Shown in pieces: positions 14,751 to 64,000 of a stretch of DNA of 64,000 nucleotides. The stretch's first letter is position 1; every line of letters starts with the position of its first letter. The notes under the pieces are model-generated. The model was given only the letters and a program-made list of their open reading frames with translations. It did not search any database and had not been told where the DNA came from. Position numbers and translations under genes: made by a program. The stretch comes from an uncultured Ruminococcus sp. (GTDB lineage Bacteria; Bacillota; Clostridia; Oscillospirales; Acutalibacteraceae): NCBI GenBank assembly GCA_902778175.1, contig CACYWT010000025.1:1-64000 (forward strand), read 5' to 3'.

Positions 14751-15057
14751 GCAAGACTGCAACAGATATGCGATGAAGCTGGAGGTTGCGGCAGGTATTG
14801 CCGGTTTTTCCGCAGAGTATGTCCGATTTTAAACCGGGCGAAACGAATATTAAGTCACGTCATGACAGATCTTCCCTATAAGGCTACAGGTGTGTACAAT
14901 AGGGGCGGGCTGTTGTGCGGCTTGAATGGTTTTGTTTTTTCAGACCTCACCCGGATATACAATTATATATTGTTATCCGGTTTTTAAATGGAAACAGGCG
15001 AAACACCCGGTGGGGTGTGAGGAAATGAAAACGCCCGCCAACTCAAATTTTTTAAGG
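14751..15057 (+). ncRNA. S10-operon leader RNA (candidate autoregulatory leader)
   Basis: About 300 bases of structured, non-coding transcript precede rpsJ. It includes GATGAAGCTGGAGGTTGCGG near 14773, AACCGGGCGAAAC near 14833, a terminator-like hairpin at 14951-14985 and an ACACCC/GGGTGT hairpin near 15001-15021. The GCTGGAGGTTGC block is reminiscent of ribosomal-protein leader RNAs upstream of rpsJ in other Bacillota, from memory only. The length and the internal terminator fit control by a ribosomal protein. Confidence 0.55.
14951..14985 (+). terminator. Internal terminator-like hairpin in the S10 leader
   Basis: CCGGATA/TATCCGG arms extended by ACAAT/ATTGT are followed by five T. It lies about 200 bases after the predicted transcription start and 84 bases before rpsJ, as expected of an attenuator. 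Confidence 0.65.
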
Positions 15058-60517: not shown

Positions 60518-63500
60518 TCAATATTTGTTTCCGTCGTTCAGTCTTTTGGTATTCATTATGTTTCTGTCAAATACCAGATCTTCTGAAATATTGTGCTTTG
60601 CATAATAGAGCGATTTCATTGCGGTCGAATACAGCTCCTCATATGACCGTCCGCCCGACGGGTACATACTTACTCCGAGCTTTCCGAATACGCTTATTTC
60701 TCCGTCGGCTGTGTCGAATTTGCGGCGCATGATGGAGCATATTGCCTCCGCCTTTTCGGTGATCTTGTCAATATTGCTCATGCCCTTGACGAAGATCACA
60801 AACTGCGCTCCGCTTATTCTTCCGATGATATCCGAATCGCGGAACAGCTCGCGCACATTGTCGGCTGTTTCTTTGAGAATGGCATTGGCGAAGGATTTTC
60901 CGAGGGCTTCCTCTACAGAATCAAAATTGCATATTTCCGCAACTATCAGAGCGTGGATACCTGCGGCTCCGTCGTCATAGAGATAATTCTTGATCTTGTT
61001 TTCAGTCGCTGTGCGGTTGTAAAGATTTGTGATATAATCGGTCCTGTCGCGTCTTGCGTCGGTATTTTCGCTGTCCTCGTTTTCGCCGGAAACATCAGCG
61101 CATACAGCCATGATCTTTACGGGAACGCCTGCCGCATTGCGTACAGCGACAAAATGGACGCGGTTCCAGATATGTTCATCTGTTATCATATTGTATATCC
61201 TGACAAGACATTCGGAATCCGCTCCCTCGGAACGCGCAAAATTCATCTTCTCAAGGAATCTCTTGATATCGTCGGGATGAACCATCGGATTGCTGCGGAT
61301 ATTTTTGATGAAGTCGTAGGTTTCGGGATTGTAGCCGTAAAGCTTTTCAAATGATCCGGAGAATTTAACGCTGTCAAGTCTTGGCGACCACTCGAATATG
61401 AAGGATTTCGTCTGTTCGAGGATCTCGTCATAAAGCCTGTCGTTGAGGACAAGGGAGCTTTTTTCATGACCGAGAACGGGAATATCGGTCCTTGCGCCCT
61501 CTTTTCTGGCGATCTCACGGAATGTAAATTCATCGCAGAGATCGGTGCTGTGTATGCCGAATACGATATCCGTCTTCATTCTGAGCTGACGGATAATATC
61601 CTCGTCGGCATTCATCGGCATATAGTTCTTTGCTCCCAGTTCAGTGAAGCAGTCTATGAGGTATACAAGAATATCTATGGGGATTATTCCGCTGCTGATC
61701 TCGTCAAGGAAATCATTCGCAAAGGTTATGCGGTCAAACATACGGTTCGTAAAGCATTTTGTATTGATGCTGTCAAGTCCGACATTGTATACGCCGATCT
61801 CAAAGCCCTTGCCCTTGAGATAATCGGTAAATTCTGTTATCTGTCGCATATCCATATCGCGGAGCATATCATGTGTGATATCAATACAGATATTGCTGCA
61901 TTTTACGGGATAGCGGACAAGGATCTCGTCTATTGCCCTCATAATGACATTGCAGTCTTTGCCCTTGAATATGGTGACTATCGAGATATCCGGGAGCTCC
62001 AGCCCGTCTTTTTCCATATTATGTATTACCGAAAATACCCTGTGCAGGCTGTCAAGGCTGAATGCGGTGATATTGCTGTTACGGGACATTGCGGTATACA
62101 TTTCGTCAAAATTGAATTCCTTGCCGAAATGTTCGGAGCTTTCGATGACCTCGTAGGATACGACCTTTTCCGCTGCCGAATCGAGAACGGGAGCAAAATA
62201 GCTTCCGTATCTGATAAGATCCTTTCTCGGATCGGCAAGCTCGTTTTTGACGCTGCTGATCTCCCAGCTTGTGCGCATATTGCTGTTGTAGAAAAGATAC
62301 ATATCCTTTCCGTTGATCTTGGCGATATCCACAGCCTTTGATGAATTGAAGAAAAGCTCGTCAAAGGTCTTGCCGTTGGCAGGATATGCAGTTACGCCTA
62401 TGCAGGCGGAAATTTCGGGATAGGTTCTTCCGTTGAATGAATATATCTTATGCAGGCTGCGGAATACCTTGTCCACAATAGCGAGGTTTTCATCGCGGTC
62501 GGGGCTGTCCTTGAGGAATACGATGAAATTATCGTCCTCAACGCGCCCGATGATATTGTTGTCGGTAAACTGACTTCTGAGTATATTTGCAATATCTTTA
62601 AGTATTTCATTGCCGAAACGGTAGCCTGTCTGACGGTTGATAGTGCGGAAGCCGTCTATATCAATGAGTATGAGCAAATGCTTTCCGTTTTTGCCGGCAT
62701 GGGAGAGATAGTCGTCTGTTTCTATGCGCAGACCGCTGAAATTGAGCAGTCCGGTCATTGAATCCCTGTTGGTAACGGTTTCGTCGCTGTTCATTGCGTT
62801 TCCGCCGTAAACGAGTCTTTGTATGCTTATGAATATACTTGTGATATCGTCGTCCTCACATACGGGGACGATCGTACAGCGGACGGGAGAATATGCGCTT
62901 CCGTCGAGCTTCAGGGGACATTCGAGAACTACCTTTTCATTGTCCTTGAGGATCTCGCTGTAAAGATTCTCCAATCTCATTGTACGGGCTGTTTTGCTTT
63001 GATAATCGTCGGGGCTTAATCCGGCAAAGAGAGTGACCGCCTCGTTATAGTTTTTGGGAACATATCCGAAAATATCTTTGAACGAGCCTTTTCTTTCTTC
63101 TGCAAGATCCTTTTTCAGATCAAATTCAAATACGAAATCGGACACACGGTTGAGTATCTCGTTATCTCTTCTGCGGGTTTCGCGCATTTCGGTTTTTTGC
63201 TGTTCTATGGTACGGATCAGATCGCTCCTGTCCATTTTGCGGTAGAGATCCTGCGTGGTATCCTGCTCATCTTCGGATAGCTTATGATCGCTGCCTTTTT
63301 CGACGGAGCTGTCCGCATGATTGACGTCGGCATATTCAAGCGCAAGCTTTTTGAATTCGGGAAGGACTTCGCTGAAACAGTCCATCATTTCATCGGAGAA
63401 TTTGCCGCAGGCGCCTGTCCTTATCATCTGCACAGCCTGTTCATGGGAGAAAGCCGCCTTATAGGGACGTTCGCTCGTCAGCGCGTCATAACAGTCTGCG

Positions 63501-64000
63501 ACCGATACGACCTGAGCCCATATCGGGATCTGATTCCCGGCAAGACCGTCCGGATAGCCCTTGCCGTCGAATTTTTCGTGATGATAACGGCAGATGTCAT
63601 AGCAGTATGTGAAATATTCGTTTCTCTCAACGCTGTCAAGCTGGTTCAGAAGATCGCAGCCCTTGACCGTATGCTCCTTCATGATATTGAATTCTTCATA
63701 AGTCAGGCGGCGCGGACTGAGCAGTATCGAATCCGGTATTGCTATCTTTCCGATATCGTGCAGTGACGAGGCGGAGGCGATAAGGTTTATTTTCTCCTCC
63801 GTCATATTATATTTGGGATATTTTACAGCCAGAGCTCTCAGCATTACCTCTGTGAATTTCTTGATACGGTGGATATGCCGTCCGGATTCAACATCACGGT
63901 ATTCGATAACGGTGCTGAGCGTATCGAGCATATCGTTATTTATTGTATTGATCTTTCTCTGCTGGAGTTTCAGAGCCTTGTTCTGCGCGAGGATCTTTGC
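60518..64000 (-). CDS. Large HD-GYP signalling protein with PAS, GGDEF-like and EAL-like parts (5' end outside)
   Basis: At least 1160 residues; the frame is still open at the window edge, with a helical AKILAQNKALKLQQRK upstream of MLDTLSTVIEYRD. That linker often follows a receiver domain. Order: HD-GYP with all metal ligands (RHIHRIKK, LHDIGKIAIPD, MKEHTVKG, YHHEKFDGKGYPDGL, ADCYDAL); a PAS-like segment; a GGDEF-fold domain with GRVEDDNF at the active site; an EAL-like fold without the EAL signature; a PAS domain; a second GGDEF fold with GRISGAQF. The last three catalytic folds look inactive, so HD-GYP phosphodiesterase of cyclic dinucleotides is the likely activity. Confidence 0.85.
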   Translation of the reverse strand, partial: AKILAQNKALKLQQRKINTINNDMLDTLSTVIEYRDVESGRHIHRIKKFTEVMLRALAVKYPKYNMTEEKINLIASASSLHDIGKIAIPDSILLSPRRLTYEEFNIMKEHTVKGCDLLNQLDSVERNEYFTYCYDICRYHHEKFDGKGYPDGLAGNQIPIWAQVVSVADCYDALTSERPYKAAFSHEQAVQMIRTGACGKFSDEMMDCFSEVLPEFKKLALEYADVNHADSSVEKGSDHKLSEDEQDTTQDLYRKMDRSDLIRTIEQQKTEMRETRRRDNEILNRVSDFVFEFDLKKDLAEERKGSFKDIFGYVPKNYNEAVTLFAGLSPDDYQSKTARTMRLENLYSEILKDNEKVVLECPLKLDGSAYSPVRCTIVPVCEDDDITSIFISIQRLVYGGNAMNSDETVTNRDSMTGLLNFSGLRIETDDYLSHAGKNGKHLLILIDIDGFRTINRQTGYRFGNEILKDIANILRSQFTDNNIIGRVEDDNFIVFLKDSPDRDENLAIVDKVFRSLHKIYSFNGRTYPEISACIGVTAYPANGKTFDELFFNSSKAVDIAKINGKDMYLFYNSNMRTSWEISSVKNELADPRKDLIRYGSYFAPVLDSAAEKVVSYEVIESSEHFGKEFNFDEMYTAMSRNSNITAFSLDSLHRVFSVIHNMEKDGLELPDISIVTIFKGKDCNVIMRAIDEILVRYPVKCSNICIDITHDMLRDMDMRQITEFTDYLKGKGFEIGVYNVGLDSINTKCFTNRMFDRITFANDFLDEISSGIIPIDILVYLIDCFTELGAKNYMPMNADEDIIRQLRMKTDIVFGIHSTDLCDEFTFREIARKEGARTDIPVLGHEKSSLVLNDRLYDEILEQTKSFIFEWSPRLDSVKFSGSFEKLYGYNPETYDFIKNIRSNPMVHPDDIKRFLEKMNFARSEGADSECLVRIYNMITDEHIWNRVHFVAVRNAAGVPVKIMAVCADVSGENEDSENTDARRDRTDYITNLYNRTATENKIKNYLYDDGAAGIHALIVAEICNFDSVEEALGKSFANAILKETADNVRELFRDSDIIGRISGAQFVIFVKGMSNIDKITEKAEAICSIMRRKFDTADGEISVFGKLGVSMYPSGGRSYEELYSTAMKSLYYAKHNISEDLVFDRNIMNTKRLNDGNKY

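Follow-up and report, generated by a model that had tools for sequence, protein, structure and literature searches.

At the edge of a stretch of 64,000 nucleotides from an uncultured Ruminococcus sp. (the window) lies a gene whose product combines folds of all three c-di-GMP enzyme classes, which raises the question of what such a chain does when only its HD-GYP domain appears to have an intact site. The first-pass annotation saw this gene cut off by the window edge and called for its 5' end. The window is the first 64,000 bases of a 97,800-base contig (C25), and on reading beyond it we found that the gene spans 60518-64420 on the minus strand and encodes 1300 aa, with 420 bases outside the window. 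The gene starts with the ATG at 64420 of the contig, and a GGAG lies four bases 5' of this codon. The upstream part adds a receiver-like domain, giving the N- to C-terminal order receiver-like, HD-GYP, PAS, GGDEF1, EAL-like, PAS, GGDEF2 (Table 1).

Table 1. Location of the gene and of its domains, in window positions and in residues of the 1300-aa protein.
Feature	Coordinates	Strand	Residues	Remarks
In-window part of gene	60518..64000	-	141-1300 + stop	frame open at window edge
Part beyond window edge			1-140	receiver-like domain and start of long helix
Helical linker receiver/HD-GYP, in-window part	63929..64000	-	141-164	predicted helix 112-175
HD-GYP	63371..63928	-	165-350	HDIGK and HHEKFDGKGYP intact; predicted active phosphodiesterase
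First PAS-like	62801..63190	-	411-540	predicted fold, relatives, weak profile match
GGDEF1, degenerate	62291..62770	-	551-710	EDDNF at 62525-62539; no I-site
EAL-like	61526..62263	-	720-965	catalytic positions replaced
Second PAS	61076..61453	-	990-1115	Pfam PAS_3
GGDEF2, degenerate	60572..61042	-	1127-1283	SGAQF at 60800-60814; RDSD I-site motif at 60830-60841

The domains that had been read from the letters (HD-GYP, two PAS, two GGDEF and one EAL-like) are all present, in the order just given. Pfam matched HD_5 with 98.6 bits (cut-off 27.2), the two GGDEF stretches with 155.3 bits summed, above cut-off, PAS_3 at the second PAS with 35.2 bits (cut-off 25.6), and EAL with 39.1-43.0 bits (cut-off 31.3). 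Structure models were built from 50 orthologues. The model of residues 540-1290 has a mean pLDDT of 81.8 and resembles GGDEF-EAL structures in a fold search (5m3c_B), and its EAL part aligns with EAL structures at Z 21-22 (3n3t_B at Z 22.1, rmsd 3.4, 238 residues aligned), which together with the Pfam score bears out the claim that the central region is EAL-like. The model of residues 1-540 has a mean pLDDT of 78.2, with parts of the HD-GYP at lower confidence. Pfam has no match at the first PAS in the window protein itself; its assignment is based on a PAS-like order of strands and helices in the predicted structure, on a profile comparison in which it weakly resembles the second PAS (44% probability, E 0.00023) and on PAS_3 matches at this position in relatives. 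A fold search with the first half of the protein returned HD-GYP and receiver structures with no recognised PAS among the best 50 rows, which leaves this assignment less certain. An NCBIfam scan gave domain-level matches only, none near a whole-protein cut-off except for a general GGDEF model.

An orthologue matches at E<=1e-60 in 59 of the 64 genomes of the genus and in 24 of its 26 good-quality genomes; the five with no match at this threshold include one rated 100% complete (G043). In 50 of the 59 the frame has 1260 aa or more, most of the others being contig-end pieces. Site counts given below refer to 50 full-length rows, after 13 of 63 aligned rows under 1200 aa were dropped (contig-end pieces, a split frame in G020, and G008, which lacks GGDEF1). 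The full-length orthologues occur across the genus at 47-82% identity, which demonstrates that the domain pattern is not a product of chance. We also rejected assembly error as the source of the dead sites, as orthologues from separate assemblies carry the same sites. The frame in G020 (L089, G020:C82) is split in two near residue 760-781, by either a real break or an assembly error.

Only the HD-GYP domain shows the signs of a working site. It fits both HDxGK and HHExxDGxGYP and, with a mean pairwise identity of 0.82, it is the best conserved of all domains. D183, E185 and H189 of PmGH (4mcw) align with D176, E178 and H182 of the window protein. All eight metal ligands of PmGH, as named in PMC4159591, are present in the window protein and in 50/50 orthologues; E178, H182, H221, D222, H250, H280, H281, D309 and K225 are each found in 50/50. 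Where the equivalents of E185 and H189 are lost, as they are in RpfG, that paper reads the loss as indicating a binuclear centre. Because both equivalents are kept here, the metal centre would be trinuclear. Motif conservation thus points to the HD-GYP as the sole part predicted to be catalytic, and the earlier statement that it alone is intact agrees with the invariant ligands and with the loss of signatures in the other folds.

The HD-GYP resembles PmGH and PA4781 (4r8z) in its fold, its two motifs and the eight PmGH ligands. Unlike in those proteins, it lies close to the N-terminus and is followed by about 950 residues, and to our knowledge neither PmGH nor PA4781 has an EAL-like part or a twin GGDEF array. 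Five PDB sequences match at E<=1e-10. They include the cGAMP-specific HD-GYP 5z7c which, along with the changed guanine-reading Asp in both GGDEF domains described below, might suggest that the enzyme acts on 3',3'-cGAMP instead of c-di-GMP. We regard this as improbable, as 5z7c is outranked by 4r8z and 4mcw, titled cyclic di-GMP phosphodiesterase and metal dependent phosphohydrolase.

The EAL-like fold was said to be without its signature, and alignment with six EAL domains that are intact in this genome confirms this: where those have the catalytic EAL, N, E, DD, K and E, the window protein has EVI, V, D, YN, T and P. The sole catalytic position partly kept is that of the EAL motif's Glu; of the 50 orthologues, 33 have D and 15 have E at position 757. 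The ExLxR binding motif expected of LapD-like receptors reads E-V-I-E-S, with the Arg absent. The EAL model is matched in 48/50 orthologues at E<=0.01, and this is the most variable domain of the protein (mean pairwise identity 0.40, with 14/241 columns at 95% or more). With neither the ExLxR motif nor the metal ligands left, and with the domain being the most variable, a c-di-GMP role for it is unlikely; it may instead be a structural or partner-binding piece. The catalytic positions are lost in 7/7 aligned relatives from genera g85 and g58, so the site would have been lost before these two genera and that of the window parted. The genome also encodes a stand-alone 258-aa EAL-like protein that likewise lacks the EAL signature (L061, G000:C5:36820-37482).

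To set the register of the GGDEF motifs we aligned both domains with GGDEF domains that are intact elsewhere in the genome. The first-pass annotation was right that the two GGDEF folds have non-consensus sites, but the motifs that it gave (VEDDN and ISGAQ) begin one residue early, the signatures being EDDNF (residues 628-632) and SGAQF (1203-1207). Neither fits the diguanylate cyclase signature GG(D/E)EF, whereas eight stretches of the same genome show GGDEF. We take the roles of the mapped positions (metal, guanine-reading Asp, Asn, Lys) to follow PleD. GGDEF1 keeps D587, N595 and D630 in 50/50, K701 in 49/50 and K705 in 48/50, and its EDDNF is nearly invariant (E628 48/50, D629 49/50, D630 50/50, N631 45/50). 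Its I-site positions have drifted and RxxD is absent. The position mapped to the guanine-reading Asp is N604, an N in 46/50. With this Asp, both glycines and the fourth signature Glu missing, GTP binding may be gone, and we consider it doubtful that GTP is bound at GGDEF1.

GGDEF2 shows a different pattern of retention. Within SGAQF, G1204 is found in 50/50 and the F in 49/50, the third and fourth positions being variable; the first metal position is E in 47/50 and the guanine Asp is N in 47/50. Its I-site combines RxxD with a dead signature in the manner of PopA, R1194 being kept in 44/50 and D1197 in 50/50. The Arg is missing in 6/50 orthologues and in one of three g85 relatives, where a C replaces it. 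In PopA and PelD (PMC10333796) and in CdgI (PMC5635695), c-di-GMP is bound by a degenerate GGDEF that keeps RxxD, and on this precedent GGDEF2 is a putative receptor. RxxD by itself is no proof of c-di-GMP binding, and we treat binding at this site as possible without presuming it. We know of no HD-GYP in the chains of PopA, PelD or CdgI. Neither GGDEF1 nor GGDEF2 is indispensable, as relatives from g58 lack GGDEF2 and the G008 orthologue lacks GGDEF1. The latter is a natural form of 1142 aa with a single GGDEF and the rest in frame (L092, G008:C34, 2565-5990).

Are the dead domains still in use? Mean pairwise identity is 0.58 for GGDEF2, 0.58 for the second PAS, 0.58 for GGDEF1, 0.51 for the receiver and 0.44 for the first PAS (n=50), while residues 126-164 of the linker reach 0.66. 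In every domain dN/dS stays at or below 0.19 wherever dS is finite (14 closest pairs; these values are rough as dS often exceeds 1 and is saturated in several cases). The low dN/dS in every domain indicates that all of them, including the dead ones, are under purifying selection, and that the losses are old and selected with no decay. The variability of the EAL-like domain and the loss of GGDEF1 in one genus genome could be read as functionless relics in slow decay. We find this reading highly improbable given the near-invariant EDDNF, the I-site kept in GGDEF2 and not in GGDEF1, the low dN/dS throughout, and the long frame kept by most matching genomes, the remainder being mostly contig-end pieces. 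The suggestion that the degenerate domains serve as sensors or effectors fits this conservation, which would suit either role.

The receiver-like domain has no Pfam match in the window protein. In its predicted fold it resembles receivers (3n53_A, TM-score 0.78 normalised by target length), and the same protein end in a g85 relative (L155) is matched by Response_reg with 66.3 bits. The phospho-acceptor Asp site is N55 in the window protein (N in 37/50, D in 2/50) and the conserved Lys site is S108 (S in 48/50, L in 1/50, C in 1/50). The residues of a phosphorylated response regulator are thus absent from the window protein, in contrast to the g85 relatives, which have them. These residues suggest that in the window's genus the domain is a pseudo-receiver that would no longer take phosphate, its site having probably been lost after the genus parted from g85. 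Pseudo-receivers are known in c-di-GMP signalling (PMC10333796). With this fourth degenerate domain found and the losses conserved, the finding is a little stronger than first stated.

Over receiver and HD-GYP the window protein is 42-44% identical to receiver-HD-GYP response regulators from its order, which have 365-424 aa or, in the case of L166 with a GGDEF, 710 aa, and which lack its PAS-GGDEF-EAL-PAS-GGDEF array. L166 is the only one scanned, and its receiver is canonical. We picture the window protein, in a reading that we favor with some reserve, as a single active HD-GYP with regulatory pseudo-domains. It would be a soluble phosphodiesterase of the HD-GYP class whose ancestor was a receiver-HD-GYP response regulator that gained the array. 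Control would have passed from phosphorylation of the receiver to the C-terminal array, with nucleotide sensing by the dead GGDEF domains. The metal, Asn and Lys positions that GGDEF1 keeps would probably let it bind a nucleotide, GTP being the simplest candidate, and its signal would run along the linker and PAS to the HD-GYP, in the way that EAL phosphodiesterases are controlled by GGDEF domains that bind GTP. GGDEF2 would probably bind c-di-GMP at the kept RxxD I-site, letting the enzyme sense its own substrate.

The regulatory principle has precedents: inactive GTP-binding GGDEF domains regulate the phosphodiesterase in CC3396 (PdeA), RbdA, RmcA and PdeB, according to PMC9061725 and PMC4823724. 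These proteins share with the window protein an inactive GGDEF in a phosphodiesterase chain and the order PAS-GGDEF-EAL. They differ in having an active EAL and a fuller GGDEF motif, whereas in the window protein the EAL is dead and the HD-GYP is the sole intact enzyme. The architecture is new, while its parts and its principle are already known.

Two other accounts of the array deserve mention. The whole protein could be an effector or scaffold, in which the HD-GYP binds or slowly turns over c-di-GMP as a trigger enzyme and the array docks partners, a part in protein interactions that inactive GGDEF and EAL domains also play elsewhere. Several domains without catalytic residues under purifying selection, and an EAL-like domain conserved as a fold and not at its site, are consistent with such a role, as are GGDEF-GGDEF and GGDEF-partner contacts (PMC5635695) and the PdeB-HubP contact (PMC9061725). 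We judge it rather unlikely, since HD-GYP metal ligands invariant in 50/50 go beyond the needs of a binding role. Alternatively, hydrolysis might need two nucleotides, GGDEF2 reading c-di-GMP and GGDEF1 having a new site, fixed in the genus, for a nucleotide other than GTP; the candidate site is EDDNF, together with the change of the guanine-reading Asp to Asn. This elaboration seems to us quite unlikely.

Less is understood about the control of HD-GYP enzymes than about that of EAL enzymes. For our preferred reading of an active HD-GYP under pseudo-domain control, the natural variants G008 (without GGDEF1), g58 (no GGDEF2 shown) and g85 (canonical receiver) form a ready comparison set, which could show how pseudo-enzymes take control over from phosphorylation. 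By its named genome records (59 loci) the genus belongs to the uncultured Ruminococcaceae and Clostridia, and the isolate labels of many of its genomes presumably point to rumen and rabbit gut. The protein would add signalling detail for uncultured Clostridia of these habitats.

A c-di-GMP pool is likely in this genome (G000), which has 16 GGDEF, 8 EAL and 7 HD-GYP matches, because GGDEF itself appears in 8 of these GGDEF stretches and 6 of the EAL stretches are intact. Neither PilZ nor flagellin was found in the genome in searches with positive controls, so no output for the messenger can be named. A search of the genome for the c-di-GMP-I riboswitch gave zero matches, as did its control.

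Full-protein matches at E<=1e-90 occur in 15 of 398 genomes of the family: six from the same genus, three from g85, four from g58 and two covering receiver-HD-GYP only. The g85 proteins (38-40% identity) have the whole architecture with a canonical receiver and GGDEF motifs off consensus (GSDSF, GSDNF, DSDGF; GRDQF). Those of g58 (about 30% identity) are a shorter form without GGDEF2, the first GGDEF being non-canonical. Two genera of one family thus have the full architecture, and a third has the shorter form. Beyond the family, matches were limited to receiver-HD-GYP parts (6/394 at E<=1e-90, with up to two candidates scored per genome), and a profile from GGDEF1 to GGDEF2 matched only the window's genus among 295 genomes of the order (E<=1e-60, up to three candidates scored per genome). 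Among the matches listed from 196 genomes of the class, nine HD-GYP frames have 900 aa or more; seven of them include a GGDEF and none an EAL. The claim that chains with folds of all three classes are rare thus stands within this limited sample. Judged by position, one of the seven HD-GYP matches in the genome shares its chain with matches to GGDEF and EAL. Literature searches for chains with the three domains, mostly in papers outside subscription, turned up no description of the window protein, and none of an HD-GYP phosphodiesterase run by pseudo-enzymes of both other c-di-GMP classes.

The surroundings of the gene were also inspected. No Rfam family matched upstream of it up to E 1 (L008 6200-8100), and a riboswitch or other RNA at this place was therefore rejected. 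Elsewhere in the window, Rfam matched an S10-Clostridia ribosomal protein leader at 14765-14841 (+) (RF03136, 43.2 bits). A 291-aa open frame at 61466-62341 (+), antisense to the EAL and GGDEF1 region, is taken as a coding-strand shadow. Two convergent genes lie downstream, which from their sequence appearance we take to be AddA and AddB. Upstream and divergent is a MecA-family gene (L008 6868-7419 (+), contig 64867-65418; Pfam 42.0 bits, cut-off 22.5). Of 58 related loci, of which 37 extend 2.5 kb or more upstream, 30 have such a mecA-like gene in this position; we did not adopt a functional link. In 22 loci a different gene family lies directly upstream of the target on the same strand.
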